64,000 nucleotides of DNA, taken from the NCBI GenBank assembly GCA_000317655.1, contig CP003940.1, positions 1,240,001-1,304,000 on the forward strand, read 5' to 3'. Of the stretch, positions 1 to 60,005 are shown piece by piece (within the stretch, counting starts at the first letter, position 1; the number at the start of each line of letters is the position of its first letter). The position numbers and the translations under genes were made by a program. The DNA is from Cyanobacterium stanieri PCC 7202 (GTDB taxonomy: Bacteria > Cyanobacteriota > Cyanobacteriia > Cyanobacteriales > Cyanobacteriaceae). Under the pieces are notes generated by a model that was not told where the DNA came from, did no database searches, and was given only the letters and a program-made list of their open reading frames with translations.

Positions 1-961
1 GAGGTTGTGGGCGGCGGCTAGTGGCTTGGTTCTCAATATCTGCGTTATTTGGTGCTGTGACGGTGGGAGAACCATTACCATTGGTAGTGGGGCGATTATT
101 TTGAGTCAGAGAATTTCTAAGGTTGTTTCTATCCCCTGATTGATTATTGAGGGAGTTAGGAGTACGAGAATTATTGTTGGTAATTCTGCCACTCGAGATT
201 TGTTGCTCATTATCAAAAAAGGTCGGTCTTTGGTCAGAATTAGCTTCATTACTCATTACTCGGGAGGATGAACCGATGGAGTTACGAAGAGTATTATTTG
301 AATTATTGTTTTCTAAAGATTGCACTCTTTGGTTTGAATTATTGTTGGTAATTCTGCCGCTTGAGATTTGTTGCTCATTATCAAAAAAAGTCGGTCTTTG
401 GTCAGAATTAGCTTCATTACTCATTACTCGGGAGGATGAACCGATGGAGTTGCGAAGAGTATTATTTGAATTATTGTTTTCTAAAGGTTGTACTGATGAG
501 GAAGTAGTGGGGTTCGTTTCGGGGGTAACTTCTGGGTTAACAGCAACAGAATTTTCTTGAGGTTGAGTAGTTTCTGGGGGTGGGGTGGGGGATTCTTGTT
601 GCTGATTTACAGGGGTTGGAGGCTGAACGGGTTCAACGACCGTAGGTGTTGGCTGAACGGGACTTACAGGAGTGGGGGTATTTTGAACGGGATTTACGGG
701 GGTTGGATTGGATGATGTGGTAGTAGTGGGGGAAGGTTCAGATTCTTGTGAGGGATTGGTTTCTGGTCTGTCTTTTTGAACCAAAATGAGTTCGATGGGT
801 TTTGCTTCTTCTTTGGTAATGGGGTTGGGTTGATTGGCAACGATGATCAACAAAACTCCATGAAGGGCGATGGAGCTAAATATTCCGAAGGTTACTAATT
901 TTTTTGTTTTTTCTGTTTCTTTTTGTCTTTGTTCTAAACACGAGGAGGAGGAGTAGGTCAT
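1..961 (-). CDS. TonB-like energy-transducing protein, C-terminus outside window
   Basis: Reading the minus strand from the ATG at 961 gives an open frame to the window edge (320 codons, no stop). The protein has a short cytoplasmic head rich in Ser, Lys and Glu, then one membrane segment (about residues 28-46, FGIFSSIALHGVLLIIVAN), then a long Pro/Thr/Gln-rich stretch with PTPV and PVQP motifs, then Asn/Ser-rich sequence. A single N-terminal anchor followed by a Pro-rich periplasmic spacer is the usual plan of TonB, which couples ExbB/ExbD to outer-membrane receptors. The globular C-terminal domain that would prove it lies outside the window. The gene follows a BtuB-like receptor on the same strand, and exbB/exbD lie just beyond that receptor, which supports the call. 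The Asn-rich part contains two nearly identical 56-residue copies. A different Pro-rich surface protein remains possible. Confidence 0.75.
   Translation of the reverse strand, partial: MTYSSSSCLEQRQKETEKTKKLVTFGIFSSIALHGVLLIIVANQPNPITKEEAKPIELILVQKDRPETNPSQESEPSPTTTTSSNPTPVNPVQNTPTPVSPVQPTPTVVEPVQPPTPVNQQQESPTPPPETTQPQENSVAVNPEVTPETNPTTSSSVQPLENNNSNNTLRNSIGSSSRVMSNEANSDQRPTFFDNEQQISSGRITNNNSNQRVQSLENNNSNNTLRNSIGSSSRVMSNEANSDQRPTFFDNEQQISSGRITNNNSRTPNSLNNQSGDRNNLRNSLTQNNRPTTNGNGSPTVTAPNNADIENQATSRRPQP
168..494 (-). repeat. 168-bp in-frame tandem duplication in the TonB-like gene
   Basis: The block starting at 168 recurs at 336 with a period of exactly 168 bp (56 codons) and only a handful of substitutions. 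The second copy fades out near 494. Both copies encode a segment running from SLENNNSNN to SSGRITNNN. Near-identity and an exact codon multiple indicate a recent in-frame duplication that lengthens the periplasmic spacer. Confidence 0.9.
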
Positions 962-1093
962 GGTATTTTTGCAAATTAATTGCAGTTAAGATCGTAATAG
1001 TGCCATGGTTAAGATCTTAAATTAATCAATAATATTTTGCAACTATTATTTAACTGAATCTTGAGGTTATGTGAGGGGGGAAATTGGGGAGAT

Positions 1094-1110
1094 GGTGGGC
1101 AATGCCCACC
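1094..1110. repeat. Dispersed palindrome GGTGGGC-AAT-GCCCACC
   Basis: Perfect 7-bp arms with a 3-base loop lie between the unknown membrane gene and the TonB-like gene. The same palindrome occurs at 15298-15320 (arms extended to 10 bp), at 45286-45302 (loop TAT), and imperfectly near 18139-18156. It may act as an mRNA hairpin within the operon. Confidence 0.8.
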
Positions 1111-1117
1111 CTACAAG

Positions 1118-1711
1118 TTATTTTGTTGATTTGGGGGAAAATTTGAGTTTTTGAGCGATAAAGAGGTTATGTAATAAGGTTAGGGCAACTGTCCAGAGGG
1201 CATTGATATAAAATACTTGCCATAATACGGGGACGTTGAAGCCGTGTAAGCCTCCCAAGACGACTCCACCAAGCCAAATCATTGCTTGATAAGCAATGTA
1301 ACCGATGACAAGAATTAAGACAATGGCGCAAAGATATTGACGAAAGTTTTTGCTTTGTCTCTCAAATTGTAATAAACCAAAGATAGTGGCTAATAATCCC
1401 CCTAATAAAATAACAATGCCCCATGCAAAGGTGCTAAAGTCGAGGGGATAGTCTCTCATGGTGAACCCGATAATTTGATTTACTAACCAGATGAGGGAAA
1501 TGGTAGTGATAGCTTTGGATTTTGGTAAAGTTTTAGAGGCGATCGCACCGAAGCCCACTAAAGGTAAAGCACAGGTAAACACCACATTGCTAAAACTACC
1601 CAAAGCCAGAAGAGTTATAAACCAAATACGGCTATTATTGACTGTTATTTGACCGTTTACCCAATTAAGGTGACGGGAATTGGTAGGAAACTTAGAAACT
1701 GAAATCGTCAT
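1118..1711 (-). CDS. Unknown polytopic membrane protein in the B12-riboswitch Ton operon
   Basis: I do not recognise a family. The 197 residues contain about five hydrophobic helices (roughly residues 28-57, 69-88, 94-114, 125-150 and 162-187). There is a short polar N-terminus and a basic C-terminus ending in KLKFSPKSTK. It starts 45 bp after the [2Fe-2S] protein gene on the same strand, downstream of the riboswitch-controlled receptor, so it is probably co-transcribed. By context it could be an inner-membrane partner for corrinoid or metal handling, since no ABC permease for B12 is visible nearby. That role is inference from position only. Confidence 0.7.
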   Translation of the reverse strand: MTISVSKFPTNSRHLNWVNGQITVNNSRIWFITLLALGSFSNVVFTCALPLVGFGAIASKTLPKSKAITTISLIWLVNQIIGFTMRDYPLDFSTFAWGIVILLGGLLATIFGLLQFERQSKNFRQYLCAIVLILVIGYIAYQAMIWLGGVVLGGLHGFNVPVLWQVFYINALWTVALTLLHNLFIAQKLKFSPKSTK

Positions 1712-1756
1712 GGTAAATACCTCATTAAATAATATTTATTTAGGTTGATAAAACCC

Positions 1757-2632
1757 CTAATGGGGACTAGGGGGATAAAGATGATTAGTGATTTTTTCAC
1801 CACCCACCACATGCTTCTGGACAATATCCTTGGCTACTTCGGGAGTAACTCGGGTGTACCAAGTTTTATCCCCCGAATAAAAAACCACAGGCCCCATTTT
1901 GCATACCTCTAAACAACCTGAAGTGATCACATGAACATCAAGATTTTCTTTTGTCACTTCCTGTTGTAGAGTATCCACAATAGGTTGCCAATTTTGGCTA
2001 GGATAACAACGTCCTGAACGGCATACCGCCAAATAAGGAGCTTTGAGGGGATTACTAGGATAAGGAATGGGTTTTTTGCCTAGTACATAAATATCCCGCA
2101 ACTGCTCATATAAACTCAGTTTTGTTAAATCTGGCTTGTGTTCGGGTAATAAATTTTCGTTTTCATCCACGAAAGGATTGGGAAAAAATATATTCATCAT
2201 CTTTTCCCCTGCACCATTCCAAAACTGAATACCCCAACTTCTAGGTTCGTTTTTTTCATTAAAACGACGATAAAAAGAAGCTCTATGAATAATTCTTTGC
2301 TGACGAAGGGATAAAGGGGTTTTTTCCTCCGGGCCTCCTCCATGTTCTTCTAAACAAAGATGTAAATGCCATGAATCGGTAACTACGGTTAAATAACCAT
2401 CATAGAGAATACATATTTTCGGGGGTTTGGTAAATTCTAATTCTAATACGCTACCCTCTACCACATGACCTACTTGGGTTTGATGCCAATTTTTTTGAAA
2501 CAGAGTATGTAGTAAACAACTGAGGGTGTCAATGTCGCAGGGAATATCCTCATATTCCATTACGCCCCCTGTGATCAGATGCTCTTTGATAGTTTGATTT
2601 AATGGTGTTACCCAAGGATTAAATTTGTTCAT
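1757..2632 (-). CDS. Thioredoxin-like [2Fe-2S] ferredoxin-domain protein
   Basis: The 291-residue protein has two parts. The first about 195 residues are a domain I do not recognise, with conserved-looking HLHLCLEEHGGG and SWGIQFWNG motifs. The last about 90 residues resemble a thioredoxin-like (Shethna-type) [2Fe-2S] ferredoxin. The putative cluster cysteines lie in AVCRSGRCYPSQ and SGCLEVCKMGP, followed by VVFYSGDKTWYTRVTPE, which is typical of that fold. It starts about 10 bp after the receptor gene ends, so the two are almost certainly in one transcript under the cobalamin riboswitch. A redox step on an imported corrinoid or metal is an attractive but unproven role. Confidence 0.75.
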   Translation of the reverse strand: MNKFNPWVTPLNQTIKEHLITGGVMEYEDIPCDIDTLSCLLHTLFQKNWHQTQVGHVVEGSVLELEFTKPPKICILYDGYLTVVTDSWHLHLCLEEHGGGPEEKTPLSLRQQRIIHRASFYRRFNEKNEPRSWGIQFWNGAGEKMMNIFFPNPFVDENENLLPEHKPDLTKLSLYEQLRDIYVLGKKPIPYPSNPLKAPYLAVCRSGRCYPSQNWQPIVDTLQQEVTKENLDVHVITSGCLEVCKMGPVVFYSGDKTWYTRVTPEVAKDIVQKHVVGGEKITNHLYPPSPH

Positions 2633-2641
2633 GGTTAATAG

Positions 2642-4687
2642 TTAAAAAGTTGCACTCAACCCGACTCGGAAATTTCTACCCAAGGCGGGGAAACCGGGAA
2701 ACTGCTCATATTGTCGATCAAATATATTATCGATCGCCCCGGTAAAATTCACATTACCCGATAGGGGGATACGAGTTTTAAAATCCATGGTGGTGTATCC
2801 GGGGAGGGATTCGGTATTAGCGTTATCCACAAAGTAACTATTGAGGTTACTAAGAATAAGAGCTAAATAAATATTTCTTTCATAGGCAATACCCACATTA
2901 AGACGATTTGCACCCCTAAAACTGAGTTGATTTCCTTCGATGGCGGGGTTATTATCCCGAAGAATGCGAGGATTGTTGAGGGTGTAGTTGGCAAAGCCGA
3001 AGATATTGGGCGCTATTTGAACATTCAAATCAGCTTCTAACCCTGTGGTTCTGATTTCACCGATGTTGGAGTAGGTGCTAGGGTTGCCAAATTCAAAATT
3101 GATCAGGTTATCAATGCGATTACTAAAAAAAGTTAGTCGTAATAAACCCCTATTACCCAACTGTTGATCGATGCCTATATCAAAACTATTGCCCCTTTCT
3201 GGTTTCAACTCAGGATTACCCACCACATTAAAAGCTCCCAAACCTTCTAGGTTAAGAACCTGGGGCGCTCGAAAACTTCTGCCATAATTGGCTCGAAGGG
3301 TAGTCTGGGGGGTGATATGATACCTTGCGCCCACACTAGGAGAAGTAAAAGAACCATTGACCAAACTATTAAAATCTTGTCTGAGTCCGAGATTAAGGTT
3401 AAATTGGGGGCTAAAATCCACTGCATAACTAGCAAAAATAGCCTGTTGTGCGATGTTGCCATCGTAGTTAAGGGTACTGAGGTTGTTGTTGATGGTGGTG
3501 TTGTCTGCCCTGGTGTTGCGGTAGTCAAAACCATAGGTAATGTTTTGGGTGGGGGTAATCTGCCAGTTGTGTTGTACCTGTAATCCCAAGGCTCGACGAT
3601 TAACTTGATCTTCTCCCCCAAAAGGTGTTGGGTTGTTGAAATTGTAGTCGAGGAAGTCTCCATATATTCTGGTGGTGAGCAGGGAGTCTTCACCCTCTCC
3701 TAGTTTGGAGGCTAGGGTGAGATCTAGTAATACCTCGTTGGTGGATTGCCTAGCAAGGGGGGTAAGGCTATTAAATGCCCCTGTGCTGTTGGGAATAGGG
3801 ATACCCCCTGCCACTCCAAAATCTTTATTTAGATAAAGGGCGTTGAAGGTAAGATTATGGCGATCGCCCATATTACCAGCTAACTGCACATTGAAGTTGT
3901 TATAAAGTACATCGGCATTTTCCCTTTGAGATTGTAAGCCGATGCGATCGATACGGAAAGGAAAGTTATTATCAGACTGGGTTCTGGTATATCCCACCGC
4001 CCAACTAACGCCGTTGGTTTCCCCCCGACTACTAATGGCTTGTTCATTCAAGCCAAAACTACCCACATTCGCCCTTACGCTCACTTGAGGAGTTTCCCCC
4101 GTACCCCTACGACTGACAATATTAATCACCCCCCCAAGGGCATCGGAACCATAAAGGGTAGAACTTCCCCCCGGTAATAGTTCAATGCGTTCGATGTTAT
4201 CAGTGGTAAAGTTGGATAGATCAAAACCCCCGAAAAAACCCACATCATTAATAGGTCTTCCATCCAATAAAATCAATACTTGAGCCGAATTGCCACCCCT
4301 GATAATTTGCCCACTCTGGGCGCCTAGTTGTCCCCCACTTGTTCCATCACTGAGAATGCCGGGTAAATATCTTAGGGCTTCTTGAACTGTTCTGGCCCCC
4401 TGTGCCTCCATTTGTTCTCGATTAATGACATACACAGGACGACTAGAATCCCTCACCGTGGCTTCGCGCCTAAAAGGGGCAAAAACAGGCTGGTTAAGGA
4501 TTTGATCTGTAATGATAATGAAAATTTCTTGCTCTTCTTCTTCGGTCAAATTTTGTTCAACCTCTGGCTCTTCTTTTGGTTGAGCGAACACTGGAAAATT
4601 ATGACCAAAAAGGACATTAACTACCAATAAAGGCGATGCCCAATAAAGACTTTTGCTCGGCAAAAGCCCCCAATATTTATTTTTCAT
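2642..4687 (-). CDS. btuB: TonB-dependent outer-membrane receptor, BtuB-like (probable corrinoid receptor)
   Basis: The product is a 681-residue outer-membrane beta-barrel receptor. A signal peptide (MKNKYWGLLP to about NFPVFA) is followed by an acidic stretch, a plug domain (PVYVINREQM, GQIIRGGNSAQVLILLDG, IERIELLPGGSSTLYGSDA, GGVINIV) and a long barrel ending in the terminal Phe expected for barrel assembly. The frame is open to an ATG at 4798, but that ATG lies inside the riboswitch. The ATG at 4687 gives a clean signal peptide and has GAGG seven bases upstream, so I chose it. B12-riboswitch control, exbB/exbD alongside and a TonB-like gene downstream support BtuB-type corrinoid uptake. 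Another substrate such as cobalt chelates or siderophores cannot be excluded from sequence. Confidence 0.85.
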   Translation of the reverse strand: MKNKYWGLLPSKSLYWASPLLVVNVLFGHNFPVFAQPKEEPEVEQNLTEEEEQEIFIIITDQILNQPVFAPFRREATVRDSSRPVYVINREQMEAQGARTVQEALRYLPGILSDGTSGGQLGAQSGQIIRGGNSAQVLILLDGRPINDVGFFGGFDLSNFTTDNIERIELLPGGSSTLYGSDALGGVINIVSRRGTGETPQVSVRANVGSFGLNEQAISSRGETNGVSWAVGYTRTQSDNNFPFRIDRIGLQSQRENADVLYNNFNVQLAGNMGDRHNLTFNALYLNKDFGVAGGIPIPNSTGAFNSLTPLARQSTNEVLLDLTLASKLGEGEDSLLTTRIYGDFLDYNFNNPTPFGGEDQVNRRALGLQVQHNWQITPTQNITYGFDYRNTRADNTTINNNLSTLNYDGNIAQQAIFASYAVDFSPQFNLNLGLRQDFNSLVNGSFTSPSVGARYHITPQTTLRANYGRSFRAPQVLNLEGLGAFNVVGNPELKPERGNSFDIGIDQQLGNRGLLRLTFFSNRIDNLINFEFGNPSTYSNIGEIRTTGLEADLNVQIAPNIFGFANYTLNNPRILRDNNPAIEGNQLSFRGANRLNVGIAYERNIYLALILSNLNSYFVDNANTESLPGYTTMDFKTRIPLSGNVNFTGAIDNIFDRQYEQFPGFPALGRNFRVGLSATF

Positions 4688-4728
4688 CCATACCTCGCAG
4701 ATGATTTTGTTATGTGTATATGTTTTTT

Positions 4729-4845
4729 GGCGGGCATCCTGACTAAAAGGCTGATATTGCCTTATCACAGTTGCGGGACAGCGTTGGATTTTCACCAAAT
4801 CTTTCCCCGTTACCTCTAATGGCTGATCCCCATTAGAACCAAATT
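4729..4845 (-). promoter_or_regulatory. Cobalamin (B12) riboswitch in the receptor leader
   Basis: On the minus strand the leader carries the conserved B12-element blocks in order: GGGGAAAG, GGTGAAAATCC, GCTGTCCCGCAACTGT, then AGTCAGGATGCCCGCC. These match the classical B12-box core. It lies between a good promoter (-10 at about 4865) and the receptor ATG at 4687, leaving about 40 bases that include the GAGG ribosome-binding site. The likely logic is adenosylcobalamin-dependent repression of receptor translation or of transcription read-through. The exact ligand is not visible, and many cyanobacteria make pseudocobalamin. Confidence 0.93.
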
Positions 4846-4862
4846 TTATTTAATAGTCATTT

Positions 4863-4891
4863 ACAATATCCTGATAGTGGTATTTTGTCAA
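4863..4891 (-). promoter_or_regulatory. Promoter of the riboswitch-Ton operon
   Basis: On the minus strand a consensus -35 TTGACA (4886-4891) is separated by 17 bases from a -10 TATTGT (4863-4868). The predicted start near 4856 would place the whole riboswitch in the leader. Confidence 0.7.
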
Positions 4892-5010
4892 ATATTTTCT
4901 TAATAGTATAAAAGATCTTATTGCCATATCTTGTATATAAATGATCCTTTTTGTTATATTATATTTCTGAAAGTAATTAATAACTATTTGCAACTAGCTT
5001 CAGTAATTAA

Positions 5011-5658
5011 ATGTTTCCTAGTAATCTATTAAGTATGGGGGGAGTGGTAACGATACCGTTATTCGCTTTCTCTTTGGTAACGGTGGCTTTGATCGTCGAG
5101 AGGTTTTGGTTTTGGACAAGGGTTAAGTCGAGGGAAAAGCCTTTAATTGTTGAGGTGCTGAAAATTTATCGTTCTGATTGTGTAACGGCGATCGCCCGTT
5201 TACGTAAAAATATAGACTTACCCATAGCCCGAATTTTTTTGGAAGCATTGGAACTAGAGGAGGCAAATTCTACGGAGTTTCGCCTTGCTTTGGAAACCGC
5301 AACCCAGGCCGAGTTACCTTTGTTAAAACGATTCAACACTTTTTTTCAAACCGTAATCACCGTCGCCCCGCTTTTGGGTTTATTAGGTACAATTTTGGGT
5401 TTAATTCAGTCTTTCGCTTCCCTTGATTTGGGTAATGCGGGGGGAACAAACACCGCAGGAGTAACGGGGGGGATTAGTGAAGCCCTTGTATCAACGGTAA
5501 TGGGATTGGTAGTGGCGATCGCAACGTTAATTTTTGCCAATGTTTTCCGTTCTTTCTATCTACGTCAAATCGCCTTGATCCAAGAATATGGGGGACAATT
5601 AGAGCTTTTATATCGTCGTCTATACGAAAAAGGAGAAAAACCCTATGCGAATACATGA
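5011..5658 (+). CDS. exbB: ExbB/TolQ/MotA-family proton channel subunit
   Basis: The 215-residue protein has the ExbB plan of one early membrane helix (about 10-32), a cytoplasmic loop and two C-terminal helices (about 115-140 and 155-182). It contains VAPLLGLLGTILGLIQSF and EALVSTVMGLVVAI, the conserved family signatures. With ExbD it uses the proton gradient to energise TonB. It is divergent from the receptor operon across a roughly 320-bp gap and overlaps exbD by 14 bp, so the two are translationally coupled. A second possible start (Met9) would lose eight residues. No strong Shine-Dalgarno is visible. Confidence 0.92.
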   Translation: MFPSNLLSMGGVVTIPLFAFSLVTVALIVERFWFWTRVKSREKPLIVEVLKIYRSDCVTAIARLRKNIDLPIARIFLEALELEEANSTEFRLALETATQAELPLLKRFNTFFQTVITVAPLLGLLGTILGLIQSFASLDLGNAGGTNTAGVTGGISEALVSTVMGLVVAIATLIFANVFRSFYLRQIALIQEYGGQLELLYRRLYEKGEKPYANT

Positions 5659-6052
5659 AGAAGAGAATGAGGTGCAAGGAGAGATTAATATTGTGCCGAT
5701 GATTGATGCTATTTTTTCTATTTTGGCATTTTTTATCATCTCCAGTCTAACTCTTGTTCGTTCCCAAGGATTGCCTGTTAATCTTCCCTCTGCCCAAACT
5801 TCTCAGGTCAACGAACGGGAAGAAATCAATATCACAGTCCAAGATAATGGCCGTGTTTTCCTTGATGGACAAGCCATTACGGTGGAAACCATTGCGACTC
5901 AGGTTAGCAGTTTGATTCCTGAAAATCAACAGGCGATGGTCATTATCAACGCTGATGAAAGTGTCTCCCATGGCATTGTCGTATCAGTAATGGATCAACT
6001 TAGACAGGTAGAAGGGGCAACCTTGGCGATCGCCACTGAGTCTCCCCAGTAG
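5645..6052 (+). CDS. exbD: ExbD/TolR-family biopolymer transport protein
   Basis: The 135-residue protein has a short acidic cytoplasmic head, one membrane helix (about 17-40) and a periplasmic domain of about 90 residues, the ExbD length and plan. The conserved membrane Asp is present (Asp21 in VPMIDAIFSI). The start overlaps the end of exbB by 14 bp. It is the partner of ExbB in powering the TonB-dependent receptor across the divergent promoter region. Confidence 0.92.
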   Translation: MRIHEEENEVQGEINIVPMIDAIFSILAFFIISSLTLVRSQGLPVNLPSAQTSQVNEREEINITVQDNGRVFLDGQAITVETIATQVSSLIPENQQAMVIINADESVSHGIVVSVMDQLRQVEGATLAIATESPQ

Positions 6053-28900: not shown

Positions 28901-31900
28901 ATGGACGATTTTACCCCAGATTTAGCAGGATCATCATTACCACCCCAAAATATAGAAGCAGAAGAAATCATATTAGGAGGTATATTATTTGATCCCAATG
29001 CCATGGGTAAAGTGGTTGATATACTACAACCAGAGGCTTTTTATGTTCAAGCCCATCGTCAAATTTATGAAGCCGCCAGACATCTTTATTTTCAAGGTCA
29101 ACCTATTGATTTAATGACCGTTTCTACTTGGTTAAATGACCAAAATTTACTGGAAAAAGTAGGCGGAAATACCAAAATAATCAGTTTATTAGATCGTACT
29201 GTTTCGGCGGCTAATATTGAAAGATATGTACCTTTAATTACTGAAAAATATATCAGACGTTTATTAATTTCCACCGCCAAAGAAATCGGTGAATTAGGCT
29301 TTGATACCACCAAAGATTTAGATAATGTTTTAGATGAATCTGAACAAAAAATATTTAGTCTTACTCAAGCAAGAATCCAAGAGGGTTTAGTACCCATTTC
29401 TAGTACATTATTAGATACTTTTACCGAAATTCAAGCCTTCCAAGAAAAAACCGCATTACCCGGTATTAGTTCAGAATTTTACGATTTAGATGGCATGACG
29501 GGGGGATTTCAGCGCTCGGATTTAATTATTATTGCCGCGCGTCCGTCCATGGGAAAATGTTTAAGTAGTGATGCAGAAATTGTGCTTGATGATGGTAGCA
29601 TTGCCACCATTGAGGAAATATATCATCGTCGTCAAGGGAAGGTTTTAACTCTCACCGATAATTGGCGATTTGGACTAACTCAACCGTCTAATTTTGTGGA
29701 TGATGGCATTAAGCCAGTATTTAGGGTAAAAACCAAATTAGGGCGTTATATTGAAACGACTTTAACTCATCCTTATCTAACTATTCAGGGATGGCGAAAG
29801 TTATCACAGCTACAGGAAGGGGATAAAATTGCCGTGCCTCGTCAGTTGCCAATTTTTGGTGAGGAAACCATGCCAGAGTATCAGGTAAAACTGTTGGCAT
29901 ATTTTATCGGTGATGGTTGTTTAACTCGTAGTTGTCCTCAATTTACTAATTCTAATCCTCTTTTACAACAGGATTTTATTGAATCTATTAGTTATTTTGA
30001 AGGGATAAAGGTTAAACGGGAAACATCACAAGATACTCGGATTCCTAGCTTTATTGTCAGTAAAGATTTAGAGTTTATCAAACAAAAAAGGTTATTATTT
30101 GCTCAAAATTTAATAACAATTATTAAGAATCATCAATTATCTTCTGTAAAAATAGCTGATTTAATAGGAGTACATCCTTCAGTAATTTCTAGTTGGAAAA
30201 AAGGTATTTATGCACCGAATAAGGAGCAATTAAATAAGTTATGTTCTATCTTGAATATAGAGCAACATCAATTATTAGATTCCGAGATAAATTTAATTAA
30301 TAAAAATCAAAAAAATATAGTTACTTTATGGTTAGAAAGTATAGAACTATGGGGAAAAAATTCCCATGATAAATTGATTCCTGATTCTATCTTTAAGTTA
30401 TCTAAGTATTTAGTAAGTTTGTTTTTAAATCGTCTTTTCTCTACGGATGGTTGGTTAACGGTTTTAAAAACTAATCAGGTACAATTGGGATATGCTACGG
30501 TGAGCGAAAAATTAGCTCGTCAAGTACAGCATTTGTTATTAAGGTTCGGTGTTATAGCTCATTTAAAACAACGTTCTGTTAAGTATAAAGATGGTAAAAA
30601 TAAACTATGGCAATTGAATATTACTGATGTCAATTCTATTAAGACTTTTATTGATGATATAGGTATTTTTGGCAAAGAAGGGGCTATAAATCGAGCAAAA
30701 GAAGCATTAGTAAATAAGAAAATTTATAGAACTAATTGCGATTTAATTCCTTTGGAAATATGGAAAGAAATCGAATTTCATAAAGGGAATGAAAGTTGGT
30801 CAAGTTTAGCTAAAAGGGCTGGAATTAAAGGTTATAAAAACATTCATCAAGGAAAACAATGTTTATCGAGAGAAAGATTATTTAAACTTGCTTTTGCCTT
30901 GGATAATTTACCTTTACAAAACCTTGCTACTAGCGATATTTATTGGGATGAAATTGTTTCCATTACATACATGGGTGAAAAACAGGTTTATGATTTAACG
31001 ATTCCCGAAACCCATAATTTTGTTGCCAATGATATTTGTGTTCATAATACAAGTTTTGCTCTTAATATTGCTTCTAATGTGGCAAAACATTCTAATTTAG
31101 CGGTGGCAATCTTTAGTTTGGAAATGTCGAGGGAACAGTTGGCGATGCGTCTGTTGTCGGGAGAGGCAAGGGTAGAGAGTAATCGCCTCAAGTCTGGCAG
31201 GATTACGGAACAAGAGATGGAGCCTTTGATGAGTGCCATGGGTACTTTGGCGGAGTTACCTATCTATATTGATGATACTGCTAATTTAACGGTGATGCAA
31301 ATGCGATCGCAAGTTAGACGTTTACAAGCAGAAAAAAAAGGAAAGTTAGGACTGGTACTATTAGACTATCTGCAATTAATGCAGGGAGGGGGTGATAACC
31401 GTGTGCAGGAATTGTCAAAAATGACAAGGGCGCTCAAAGGTTTAGCAAGGGAAATTAATGCCCCTGTAATTGCTCTATCTCAGTTGAGTAGGGCAGTTGA
31501 GCAACGCACAAACAAACGCCCCATGTTATCGGATTTGAGAGAGTCGGGCTGTTTAAGTGGTGATTCTTTGGTGACAATGGCAGACACTGGGGAAGAAATT
31601 CCCATCAAAGACTTGGAAGGTAAATCTGGGTTTGCCATTTGGGCTTTGAATGAAACTACCATGAAAATGGAAAGGGCTTTGGTTAGTAATGCTTTTTGTA
31701 CAGGTATTAAGCCCGTATGGAGGATAACAACTGAGTTAGGGCGTACTATCAAAGCAACGGCTAACCACAAATTTTTACGGTATGATGGTTGGCAGAGATT
31801 GGATTGTTTACAAAAGGGCGATCGCATTTCGCTCCCCCTTGATTTTTTAAAAGTACAAAAACCTAAAAAATCAGAACTTATAAAAGGTAATATTTATTGG

Positions 31901-32185
31901 GATAAAATTAAGAGTATTGAACTTGTGGGAGAAGAAAAAGTTTATGATCTAACGGTGCCTAATTTACATAATTTTGTTGCTCAAAATTTATATGTTCACA
32001 ACAGCATTGAACAAGATGCGGATTTAGTGTTAATGTTATATCGTGACGAATATTATCACCCTGACAGTGTTGATCAAGGGGTAGCGGAGGTAATTGTGGC
32101 AAAACATCGTAATGGCCCCACGGGATTAGTAAAACTCCTTTTTCGTCCTGAATTAACCCAGTTTTTAAACATGAAAAGAGGGTAA
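28901..32185 (+). CDS. dnaB: Replicative DNA helicase DnaB with two inteins
   Basis: The 1094-codon frame encodes a normal-sized helicase of 446 residues once two protein-splicing inteins are removed. Extein parts are the N-terminal DnaG-binding domain (LPPQNIEAEEIILGGILFDP), the RecA core with the P-loop ARPSMGK then TSFALN, and C-terminal motifs (FSLEMSREQLAMR, LVLLDYLQLMQG, LSQLSRAVEQR, LRESG then SIEQDADLVLML). Intein 1 sits inside the P-loop and intein 2 after LRESG, so unspliced protein cannot bind ATP properly. It drives fork unwinding. The gene is followed three bases later by a MOSC gene, suggesting co-transcription. Confidence 0.96.
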   Translation: MDDFTPDLAGSSLPPQNIEAEEIILGGILFDPNAMGKVVDILQPEAFYVQAHRQIYEAARHLYFQGQPIDLMTVSTWLNDQNLLEKVGGNTKIISLLDRTVSAANIERYVPLITEKYIRRLLISTAKEIGELGFDTTKDLDNVLDESEQKIFSLTQARIQEGLVPISSTLLDTFTEIQAFQEKTALPGISSEFYDLDGMTGGFQRSDLIIIAARPSMGKCLSSDAEIVLDDGSIATIEEIYHRRQGKVLTLTDNWRFGLTQPSNFVDDGIKPVFRVKTKLGRYIETTLTHPYLTIQGWRKLSQLQEGDKIAVPRQLPIFGEETMPEYQVKLLAYFIGDGCLTRSCPQFTNSNPLLQQDFIESISYFEGIKVKRETSQDTRIPSFIVSKDLEFIKQKRLLFAQNLITIIKNHQLSSVKIADLIGVHPSVISSWKKGIYAPNKEQLNKLCSILNIEQHQLLDSEINLINKNQKNIVTLWLESIELWGKNSHDKLIPDSIFKLSKYLVSLFLNRLFSTDGWLTVLKTNQVQLGYATVSEKLARQVQHLLLRFGVIAHLKQRSVKYKDGKNKLWQLNITDVNSIKTFIDDIGIFGKEGAINRAKEALVNKKIYRTNCDLIPLEIWKEIEFHKGNESWSSLAKRAGIKGYKNIHQGKQCLSRERLFKLAFALDNLPLQNLATSDIYWDEIVSITYMGEKQVYDLTIPETHNFVANDICVHNTSFALNIASNVAKHSNLAVAIFSLEMSREQLAMRLLSGEARVESNRLKSGRITEQEMEPLMSAMGTLAELPIYIDDTANLTVMQMRSQVRRLQAEKKGKLGLVLLDYLQLMQGGGDNRVQELSKMTRALKGLAREINAPVIALSQLSRAVEQRTNKRPMLSDLRESGCLSGDSLVTMADTGEEIPIKDLEGKSGFAIWALNETTMKMERALVSNAFCTGIKPVWRITTELGRTIKATANHKFLRYDGWQRLDCLQKGDRISLPLDFLKVQKPKKSELIKGNIYWDKIKSIELVGEEKVYDLTVPNLHNFVAQNLYVHNSIEQDADLVLMLYRDEYYHPDSVDQGVAEVIVAKHRNGPTGLVKLLFRPELTQFLNMKRG
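29558..31048 (+). other. DnaB intein 1, 497 aa, LAGLIDADG endonuclease plus HTH
   Basis: It runs from Cys220 to Asn716, between GK and TSFALN of the Walker A loop. Block A begins CLSSDAEIVLDDG, block B has TTLTHPYLTIQGW, and the C-terminal splicing block ends HNFVANDICVHN with Thr as the +1 residue. In the middle are two LAGLIDADG-type motifs (LLAYFIGDGCLT and LFLNRLFSTDGWLT) for homing. Between them is a Xre-like helix-turn-helix (SSVKIADLIGVHPSVISSWK). All splice-site residues are present, so splicing should be active. Confidence 0.93.
31550..32002 (+). other. DnaB intein 2, natural 151-aa mini-intein
   Basis: It runs from Cys884 to Asn1034, between LRESG and SIEQDAD, with Ser as the +1 residue. 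It keeps block A (CLSGDSLVTMADTG), block B (GRTIKATANHKFLRYDGW) and block F/G (VYDLTVPNLHNFVAQN, YVHN) but has only a short linker in place of an endonuclease. It matches the site and sequence style of the well-known Synechocystis DnaB intein, which carries an endonuclease, so this copy has lost or never had one. Confidence 0.94.
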
Positions 32186-56453: not shown

Positions 56454-59400
56454 TTAAGCACTAAAATATTTAGCCACAGGGTGATAACAAATAATCGCAC
56501 TGGTGGACTGTTCAGGGTATATTTGTTCAGACTCATCCATATACATATCAATGCGCTTAGTATCCAACAAATCTAACTGCACATATTGATCTAACATATT
56601 AGGACAGGCAGGATAACCAAAACTATACCGTGAACCCTGATAACGTTGTTTAAACATATCACGGATATTATCTGGCTCTAAATCGCCAAAACCCAACTCC
56701 CGTCGAATCCTTGCATGACACCATTCCGCCATGGCTTCCGCCGTTTGTACCGCCATACCATGATAATAGAGGTAATTGGTATATTCATCATTGGCAAACA
56801 GTTTTTGAGCGTATTCTGTGGCAATTTCGCCCACCGTCACCGCCTGCATGGGAAAAACATCGATGATACCCGAATCTTTAGAAGCGAAAAAGTCCGCAAT
56901 ACATAGCCTTTTACCAGACTTTTGGCGGGGAAACTCAAATTTGGCAATTTCTTCCCTAGCTTCAGGATTTTCAGGGTTATAAATATATAAAGTATTACCT
57001 TCCGATTGACAGGGGAAATAACCATAAATGAGAGTAGGATGTAATAAATTTTCCGCTTTTATTTTTGCTTTCCATTCATCTAAAATAGGATGTACTTTTT
57101 CCGCTAAAAATTCATTATATTCCTCCCTTGGTTGCCCTTGGGGTTTACGGAATTGCCACTGTCCTGCAAACAAGGCTTGTAAATCTAAATACCAGAAAAG
57201 ATCGTCAAAATCAAACTCATCAGGATACATAATTTTTGTACCCCAAAAAGGAGGAGTCGGACGTTCAATATTAGGATCAACTGCATCACTTCTACGGGTA
57301 TCAATTACCTGCTCTTTTTCTTCTTCTTTCTCTTTCTTCTCCTCAGTTTTTACCTCTCCAGAATCATCAAAGTTACGACCTTTAAAGAGATTATTTTCTT
57401 CTTCAAATTCTCCTAAAAATCCTTGTAAATTATCCCATTGACTGCTATTTTTGGCAGGCATTAATTTATCCATAAAGTGTAAATCGGCAAAAGCATCTTT
57501 ACCATAAACCACTTTACCGTTATAAGCATTTTGACAATCTTCATAGACAAATTTAGGAGTTAGGGCAGCACCCCCCAAGATAACGGGAACATTTATTCCC
57601 TCTTGGTTAAAGGTTTCTAAGTTATCTTTCATAAACGCCGTGGATTTTACTAATAAACCACTCATGGCGATACAATCTGCATTAGATTCTCGATAGGCTT
57701 TAATGATATTTTCCACAGGTTGTTTAATACCAATATTGACCACTTTATAACCATTATTAGAAAGAATAATATCGACCAAATTTTTGCCAATATCATGGAC
57801 ATCTCCTTTCACTGTGGCAATTAAAAATGTACCTTTACCACTACCATCACTATCAGCTTTATCCATAAAAGGTTCGAGGAAAGCTACGGCAGATTTCATG
57901 GTTTGGGCAGATTGTAAAACGAAAGGCAATTGCATTTGTCCACTACCAAATAACTCCCCAACAACCTTCATACCATCCAATAAAAAGACATTAATAATAT
58001 CTAAAGGAGGATACTTGTCTAGGGCAATATTTAAAGCATCTTCTAAGCCAATTCTTTCCCCTTCAATAATATGTTGTTTTAACCTTTCTTCGATAGGTAA
58101 ATCAGCGACATTTTTCTTATTACTTTTCGTGGTTTTACCCTGAAATAAGGTGGTTAATTCTCCTAAAGGATCATAAGTACAAATATCCCCATCAAATTTT
58201 CTATTATCGTAGATTAAATCCCTACAAATTTCTAAAGATTTTTCGTCAATCTTAGCTAATGGTAATATTTTATTAGGAGAAACGATCGCACCGTCCATCC
58301 CTACCTGCATCGCCTCATGGAGAAACACCGAGTTTAACACCTGACGGGCGGCAGGATTCAAACCAAAGGAGATATTAGAAACCCCCAACATAAAATGACA
58401 TTCGGGGAAATCTGCATGGATGCGCCTGATAGATTCGATAGTCGCCTTACCATTTTCCCTGTCTTCCTCAATCCCAGTGGAAATGGGCAAAGCAAGGGTA
58501 TCAAAAAAGATTTCATGGGCAGGAATACCAAACTTCAGCGCATCATTATAAGCACGTTTAGCAATCTCATATTTTTTGTCCGCCGTGCGCGCCATACCAT
58601 CCTCATCGATAGTACCAATTACCACCCCAGCACCATATTGTTTCGCCAATTCCAACACCTTAAAAAATCTTTCCTCTCCATCTTCATAGTTAGTAGAGTT
58701 GAGGATACATTTACCCCCCACCACCTTTAATCCTGCCTCCATTTTTTGCCATTCCGTGGAGTCTAACATGAGGGGGAGGGTGATATTATTCACCAGACGA
58801 GAAGCCAATTCGTGCATATCTTTTTCCCCATCCCGCCCCACATAATCCACGTTAACATCAAGGATGTGGGCGCCTTCTTTTACCTGACTTTTGGCAAGGG
58901 ATACCAAACCATCCCAATCTTCAGCGTTGAGCATATCACGGCATTTTTTCGAGCCACTGGCGTTGAGTCTTTCACCCACAATTAAGAAAGAATTATCTTG
59001 ATGGTAGGGTTGAGTGCCATAAATAGAAGCGGCGGAAGGCTCATAATTATAATGACGCTCTTTGGGTTTGAGGGTACTGGCAATTTCTGCCAAGGCTTTG
59101 ATATGATCAGGACGAGTACCACAACAACCGCCGATAATTTGTACTCCCAAATCTTCGATAAAGTGCATCAAGTGCATTTTTAACTCAATGGGAGATAGTC
59201 TGTAGTGCGCTTGTCCTCCTACATTTTCAGGTAAACCTGCATTGGGTACACAGGAAACTACGAAGGGGGAATTTTCGCTTAAATACTTGATGTGGGGTTT
59301 CATCAAATCAGGGCCTGTGGCACAGTTTAAGCCTAATACATCAATAGGATAAGGCTCAAGAATAGCAAGGGCTGCACTGATTTCTGTACCTACTAACATA

Positions 59401-60005
59401 GTACCCATGGTTTCCATGGTGACGGATACCATCAGGGGGAGTCTTTCTCCTTTTTCTTTGAATACTTCTTCGATGGCGTTGAGGGCGGCTTTAATTTGTA
59501 GTACGTCTTGACAGGTTTCCACTAACAGTAAGTCGGCACCACCATCGTATAACCCTTGAACTTGGGTGACGTAGGCATCTTTTAGGGTATCATAGTCGAT
59601 GTGTCCGAGGGTGGGTAGTTTTGTACCTGGGCCAATGCTTCCTGCCACGAAACGGGGTTTTTCGGGGGTGGAATATTCTTGGGCTACTCTTTTGGCTAAC
59701 TCAGTGGCGGTTTTATTAAGATAGTAGGAGCGATCGGCAAGATCATATTCTGCTAAGACTAGGGGTGTACCCCCAAAGGTGTCGGTTTCAATAACATCGG
59801 CGCCTGCTTCTAAAAAGCCCCTATGGACGATTTCCACTGCTTCGGGTTTGGTATGGACTAAATATTCGTTACATCCTTCATATTCTGCCCCGCCAAAGTC
59901 TTCGGCGCTCAAGTTTTGTACTTGTAGGTTTGTACCCATGGCACCATCTAATACTAGCACGGGGCGATCTTTGCTATGGAGTCTTTCTAAGAATAGGCTT
60001 TTCAT
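56454..60005 (-). CDS. metH: Cobalamin-dependent methionine synthase
   Basis: The 1183-residue multidomain enzyme has an N-terminal homocysteine-binding domain ([19 protein letters not shown], zinc Cys pair in [10 protein letters not shown] near residue 293), a pterin-binding domain ([18 protein letters not shown]), a B12-binding domain with [18 protein letters not shown] near residue 735 and a C-terminal AdoMet reactivation domain ([30 protein letters not shown]). It methylates homocysteine using methylfolate. All key motifs are present. It is a likely consumer of corrinoid from the Ton cluster. Its stop codon lies in a 19-bp repeat adjoining the REP element. Confidence 0.96.

Follow-up and report, generated by a model that had tools for sequence, protein, structure and literature searches.

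A riboswitch-controlled operon of Cyanobacterium stanieri PCC 7202 with a probable stand-alone corrinoid importer in the place of BtuFCD

In the Escherichia coli BtuB–BtuCDF system a riboswitch stands over btuB, and the outer-membrane B12 receptor is energised by TonB–ExbBD. The inner-membrane importer is unidentified in many B12-importing bacteria (PMC6072759). BtuM of Thiobacillus denitrificans is a solitary six-helix importer which ligates cobalt through a cysteine (PMC6072759). In Anabaena sp. PCC 7120 the operon alr4027-btuB2-alr4030-btuFCD is under riboswitch-linked control; btuB2 and btuD mutants take up less cobalamin, and alr4030 has been assigned no function (PMC10878165). FhuF, finally, is a ferric-siderophore reductase (PMC8068687). 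Here we describe a locus at one end of a 64,000-nucleotide stretch of Cyanobacterium stanieri PCC 7202 (contig CP003940.1, positions 1,240,001 to 1,304,000; the whole stretch is referred to as the window). A cobalamin riboswitch is followed there by genes for a BtuB-like receptor, a protein joining the domain DUF7676 to a [2Fe-2S] domain, and a small membrane protein (MP).

The locus shares with E. coli the TonB–ExbBD-energised outer-membrane receptor and the riboswitch over btuB, but its operon is without BtuC, BtuD and BtuF and has the DUF7676-[2Fe-2S] and MP genes in addition. Riboswitch, btuB and DUF7676–ferredoxin gene stand in the same order as in the Anabaena operon and in that of its close relative Trichormus variabilis (L072); the window, however, has MP for btuFCD and no DUF1636 gene in the operon. 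Because Trichormus variabilis shares the Anabaena order, DUF1636-btuB2-alr4030-btuFCD, we take alr4030 as the counterpart of the window DUF7676 protein. Model searches and a reading of the sequence confirmed the arrangement given in a preliminary description of this DNA: riboswitch, BtuB-like, [2Fe-2S], membrane-protein and TonB-like genes, with exbB and exbD divergent. That description held both middle genes to be without a known corrinoid role. The statement stands for MP; alr4030 had already been reported in a B12 operon, though without a function (PMC10878165). We propose that MP is probably a stand-alone inner-membrane corrinoid importer acting in BtuFCD's stead, within a TonB-energised, riboswitch-controlled uptake operon, and that, of the steps of B12 uptake, passage across the inner membrane and chemical processing probably fall to MP and the DUF7676-[2Fe-2S] protein.

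Evidence for this lies in what follows DUF7676. The downstream position is taken by a BtuF(C/D)-type ATP-binding cassette (ABC) importer at 20 loci or by MP at nine, and never by both. The former are 13 cyanobacterial loci with BtuF (BtuC alongside in 12) and seven plasmid loci with ABC importer genes; the latter are the window, G056, G388, G129, G177, G332, G320 (where no btuB is adjacent), Gloeocapsopsis and Methylocella. Were the loci independent, such exclusivity would have a probability of 1/C(29,9), or 1e-7, which overstates the case as the loci are related; the number of exchanges on a tree is the safer measure. On the DUF7676 tree no fewer than three changes between MP and ABC importer are needed, and a grouping of all MP operons in one clade is rejected, so that the exchange has been a repeated one and a single ancestral swap does not account for it; long branches (Methylocella, Rhodococcus and Paracoccus) contribute to that rejection. 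MP thus repeatedly takes the position of btuFCD. The same cassette is found in another phylum, in Methylocella tundrae, as riboswitch (123.6 bits), btuB, DUF7676 and MP. Chance co-location was also rejected, given the single riboswitch of the C. stanieri genome and the same order in at least four distant lineages. No BtuF homologue was found genome-wide in any of the nine genomes with MP or an MP remnant, C. stanieri included, with a query protein that matches the 12 other cyanobacterial BtuF proteins by blastp.

The N-terminal domain of the second gene product is DUF7676 (PF24724; 6.8e-68, 227.7 bits against a gathering cut-off of 27). Its C-terminal thioredoxin-like [2Fe-2S] domain falls just under the cut-off of PF01257 (23.1 versus 24.8) and has profile matches, down to 2e-11, to solved NuoE/HoxF-type and Aquifex [2Fe-2S] proteins; the four cluster cysteines, C204, C209, C240 and C244, are all conserved in the cyanobacterial fusions. 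In an evenly drawn sample DUF7676 occurred in 17 of 244 cyanobacterial genomes, in every case directly after a close btuB homologue. A cobalamin riboswitch lay upstream at 14 of the 16 loci with a readable upstream region, the others (L040 and L042) having none above threshold; L041, which begins at a contig end, was left out of the 16. The gene therefore does not lie beside iron or copper receptors in most genomes, a possibility that the preliminary description had raised. Plasmid copies occur within cobalamin-riboswitch operons of Azospirillum, Paracoccus, Diaphorobacter, Methylocella, Rhodococcus, Acaryochloris, Trichormus and Nostoc, and such operons span three phyla: Cyanobacteria, Alpha- and Betaproteobacteria, and one actinobacterium. 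The viral contigs scanned contained no relative of either the DUF7676 or the MP gene.

Since DUF7676 accompanies both importer types and occurs in the actinobacterium Rhodococcus, it is bound neither to one importer nor to an outer membrane. It also accompanies BtuFCD, which MP never does, so that the inner-membrane step probably belongs to MP and not to the pair; to this extent the earlier proposal that the pair forms an inner-membrane or redox step is narrowed, while the neighbourhood evidence supports its general sense. Our best guess is that the DUF7676-[2Fe-2S] protein would perform a cytoplasmic step in which cobalt is reduced and the upper ligand removed. The H-x-H-x-C motif, R113 and R122 could be corrinoid-binding residues, to judge from their conservation. 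This role would resemble that of FhuF, a [2Fe-2S] protein that acts on imported chelates in the cytoplasm and reduces their metal (PMC8068687), and in Rhodococcus and Streptomyces a gene for an FhuF_C-type [2Fe-2S] protein precedes DUF7676. The window protein differs from FhuF in its thioredoxin-like [2Fe-2S] domain and unrelated N-terminal domain, and corrinoid is its putative substrate. Alternatively, the protein might have no redox chemistry at all and act on the corrinoid before it crosses the membrane or as it does so, perhaps as a chaperone that docks on the transporter, as its company with both importer types and the lack of a fused ferredoxin domain in proteobacterial DUF7676 would allow. 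We regard this as somewhat unlikely: in cyanobacteria DUF7676 is fused to a [2Fe-2S] domain and in Actinobacteria it is paired with a [2Fe-2S] protein, which argues for electron transfer, as does the conservation of all four cluster cysteines in the cyanobacterial fusions.

A Rhodococcus plasmid (L068, 3058-12736) carries two opposed cobalamin-riboswitch operons. One comprises BtuFCD, FhuF_C and DUF7676; the other contains an ABC importer and a protein in which a thioredoxin-like [2Fe-2S] domain is combined with a weak, sub-threshold match to CbiX.

MP is rare, being present in seven of 386 cyanobacterial genomes, and it occurs in four genomes of the genus of C. stanieri. The hydrophobic stretches of an 11-row alignment are compatible with six helices, and lysine plus arginine amount to 2.4–3.4 in the cytoplasmic stretches against 0–0.9 in the periplasmic loops; on these positive charges both ends and loops 2 and 4 are predicted to be cytoplasmic. 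A conserved T-C-A-L-P segment with C47 falls in predicted periplasmic loop 1, while helix 3 has five residues without variation in the alignment, N78, Q79, G82, Y88 and P89, at its periplasmic end. With its six predicted helices MP is thus reminiscent of BtuM, an inner-membrane protein of similarly small size (~22 kDa) that also has six helices and is associated with btuB in the absence of BtuCDF (PMC6072759); in MP, too, a family cysteine is predicted on the periplasmic face, and the operon has no dedicated ATPase. The two nevertheless differ. No homology was detected, the MP cysteine lies in predicted loop 1 whereas BtuM has its Cys80 in L3, and C47 is not invariant: it is present in nine of the 11 aligned proteins, with PHVP instead in both G320 copies and an Acaryochloris copy. 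MP was therefore not filed as BtuM.

There is a second arrangement of MP-like genes, which lacks btuB: a cobalamin riboswitch stands directly before an MP copy that is degenerate or perhaps frameshifted (L028 8192-9863, on G129:C6, and L059 7807-8543). In L028 a fatty-acid desaturase and a methyltransferase gene come next, and an MP remnant lies beside the same desaturase in L029 (100-1554).

The receptor has Plug and beta-barrel domains (Pfam), and its top NCBIfam model is that of the B12 receptor, TIGR01779 (201.3 bits, 2.7e-59). As this score does not reach the equivalog cut-off of 599.7 bits, the protein is named BtuB-like, from its position and best model, and not as an equivalog. It is 48–79% identical to the receptors whose genes immediately precede DUF7676 in other cyanobacterial genomes, and about 53% identical to the Trichormus and Nostoc receptors that share the gene order of Anabaena btuB2. 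A start at TTG 4798, as given in the list of open reading frames, was rejected because that frame runs through the aptamer; ATG 4687 was taken instead.

The aptamer scores 58.5 bits with RF00174 (gathering score 31.5; E 6e-12), and the 3.16-Mb genome has no other cobalamin riboswitch. Comparison of 24 cobalamin riboswitches, nearly all cyanobacterial, showed an aptamer loop of the form GTCCCGC(A/G)(A/G)C in 21. The sequence TGCGAGG lies about 5–14 bases 3' of the aptamer in 19 of the 24, with near-variants in four more. The window's element of this type is a small hairpin which encloses the GAGG of the ribosome-binding site together with the start codon of btuB, and its loop is predicted to pair with aptamer loop L5. 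Cobalamin riboswitches work through L5–L13 kissing, and by analogy ligand binding should hide the btuB start, so that switching would be translational. As for the single promoter of the preliminary description, a sigma-70-like sequence does abut the aptamer, but promoter-like matches in the region are no more numerous than expected by chance, and it is position alone that makes this one plausible.

At two other loci (L122 3488-4220 and L123 5495-6227) a cobalamin riboswitch lies about 585 bases upstream of metE, and the conserved hairpin contains a start codon; the interval before metE may thus hold a leader reading frame. A family of proteins of about 150 residues also occurs near cobalamin riboswitches (L028 10917-11366, L128 8698-9138 and L062 6134-6592); its L062 member, the one tested, has no Pfam match.

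In the mechanism that we propose, BtuB with TonB–ExbBD would move the corrinoid into the periplasm. MP would bind the corrinoid at its periplasmic face, where Cys47 in the T-C-A-L-P loop (His in some paralogues) would probably be the cobalt ligand, and would hand it to the cytoplasm without the help of an ABC ATPase. A cytoplasmic DUF7676-[2Fe-2S] protein would then receive the corrinoid, and electrons from its cluster would serve to reduce Co(III) and to remove the upper ligand. The processed corrinoid would be used by MetH, the consumer named in the preliminary description and indeed present in the window. In replete cells, L5 of the ligand-bound aptamer would pair with the hairpin loop holding the btuB ribosome-binding site, turning the operon off.

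Several observations weigh against a role of MP as B12 importer. MP (197 residues) has no Pfam or NCBIfam family match, and neither the single sequence nor the 11-row profile found a match in the PDB, BtuM included, up to E=10. The literature searched yielded no earlier report of MP and no transport or binding experiment on it. On the question of an S-component fold, AlphaFold2 with two alignment rows (window and L046) gave a pLDDT of 48 for MP, and a run of the same depth gave 42 for DUF7676. The putative ligand Cys47 is replaced in the copies named above. A terminator-like hairpin between the DUF7676 and MP genes (one of five such sites, where 4.0 are expected) may reduce MP expression. The C. 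stanieri genome has cobB and so might make its own corrinoid, and an ABC importer with a FecCD permease, encoded elsewhere in this genome, could carry corrinoids. Lastly, the btuB-DUF7676-MP cassette on a Gloeocapsopsis dulcis plasmid (L057 2944-15414) has no riboswitch and is set among thrS, DUF1636, cobW-like, folE, hisI and cysS paralogues of a kind associated with zinc starvation, so that its substrate is possibly a metal chelate; a zinc/cobalamin cross-link is another possibility at that locus.

The FecCD permease (1877858-1878778 of the genome) also qualifies the preliminary description's remark that no BtuC, BtuD or BtuF is visible, which is correct for the operon and, as regards BtuF, for the whole genome. 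It belongs to a cluster with receptor, binding-protein and ATPase genes, and one or more strong FecCD permeases are present in each of the three congeners, as in C. stanieri. MP might then have an accessory role in the membrane or modify corrinoids there, perhaps as a redox partner of DUF7676, with a promiscuous iron-type FecCD importer performing the inner-membrane step. A btuF insertion in Anabaena hardly alters uptake, which suggests that paralogues can stand in (PMC10878165). We nonetheless consider this account improbable. MP and BtuFCD exchange at one position at least three times, and the FecCD cluster is without a cobalamin riboswitch, the only one of the genome being that in the window. 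Moreover, G129 (6.9 Mb, 99% complete) has riboswitch, btuB, DUF7676 and MP but no FecCD/BtuC-family permease above cut-off, and G320, which likewise has MP, no convincing one, its best match being weak and covering part of the model.

Dependence on B12 varies among the MP-bearing congeners. C. stanieri has cobB and no detected MetE, MetH being its only recognisable methionine synthase. In G056 and G388 cobB is lost and MetE is kept behind a second riboswitch. In G387 riboswitch and btuB (C20), DUF7676 (C8) and MP (C12) lie on three contigs, all intact; an initial classification of this genome as having MP without DUF7676 was therefore rejected. As neither MetE nor cobB was detected in it, G387 should depend on imported corrinoid. 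Within one genus, then, the states cobB+MetE- (C. stanieri), cobB-MetE+ (two genomes) and both absent (one) form what appears to be a recent gradient of B12 dependence. It is improbable that the cassette imports cobalt, zinc or another metal chelate, with B12 sensed by the riboswitch merely as a stand-in for cobalt, as the zinc-starvation-like island of Gloeocapsopsis with its DUF1636 and COG0523 genes and the DUF1636-cobW pairs behind cobalamin riboswitches in G129 and G195 might suggest, for the receptor's best model is that of a B12 receptor, its relatives stand in the btuB2-type order of an operon whose btuB2 and btuD mutants import less cobalamin (PMC10878165), and the predicted auxotroph G387 retains all three genes.

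Table 1. Coordinates of the operon and of associated features in the window
Feature	Position	Strand	Basis
Cobalamin riboswitch aptamer (RF00174), L5 GTCCCGCAAC	4712..4858	-	covariance-model score
Sigma-70-like promoter, TTGACA-N17-TATTGT	4863..4891	-	10/12 matches, abuts aptamer on upstream side
Putative expression platform CATCTGCGAGGTATGGATG, hairpin with GAGG and btuB start codon	4685..4703	-	riboswitch comparison
btuB-like TonB-dependent receptor, 681 aa	2642..4687	-	domain and model matches
DUF7676 and thioredoxin-like [2Fe-2S] protein, 291 aa	1757..2632	-	Pfam and profile match
DUF7676 domain	2087..2575	-	invariant H89-x-H91-x-C93, R113, R122, W133, N139
[2Fe-2S] domain, C204-x4-C209 ... 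C240-x3-C244	1814..2050	-	Pfam, NCBIfam, alignment, profile
Terminator-like hairpin at DUF7676 gene stop	1754..1773	-	sequence scan
MP, predicted six-helix membrane protein, 197 aa	1118..1711	-	alignment, topology, position of btuFCD
TonB-like gene, runs past window edge	1..961	-	read from sequence
exbB, divergent	5011..5658	+	PF01618 1.7e-32
exbD, divergent	5645..6052	+	PF02472 1.8e-28
MetH	56454..60005	-	read from sequence

The TonB-like gene was read as encoding a TonB-like N-terminus, its TonB-like C-terminal domain lying past the window, and the congener G388 has the same gene order, this gene included. The linker of the TonB-like protein (130-540) contains a tandem duplication of about 55 residues that is near-identical at the DNA level. 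Far from the operon, a DnaB helicase frame (28901-32185) looks, from the reading of the sequence, to be broken by two intein-like insertions.

A wider proposition, which we put forward tentatively, is that MP founds a new, ATPase-free family of inner-membrane B12 importers in cyanobacteria and Alphaproteobacteria, and that DUF7676 with its [2Fe-2S] partner is a cytosolic cob(III)alamin reductase and upper-ligand remover across Cyanobacteria, Proteobacteria and Actinobacteria. To our knowledge it is a largely open question which protein in bacteria reduces cobalamin after import and removes its upper ligand, and so, in many B12-importing bacteria, is the identity of the inner-membrane importer. 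The operon offers a candidate for each of these gaps, MP as the importer and DUF7676, in three phyla, as the cobalamin processor, and would improve the prediction of which cyanobacteria can import B12 from their neighbours.

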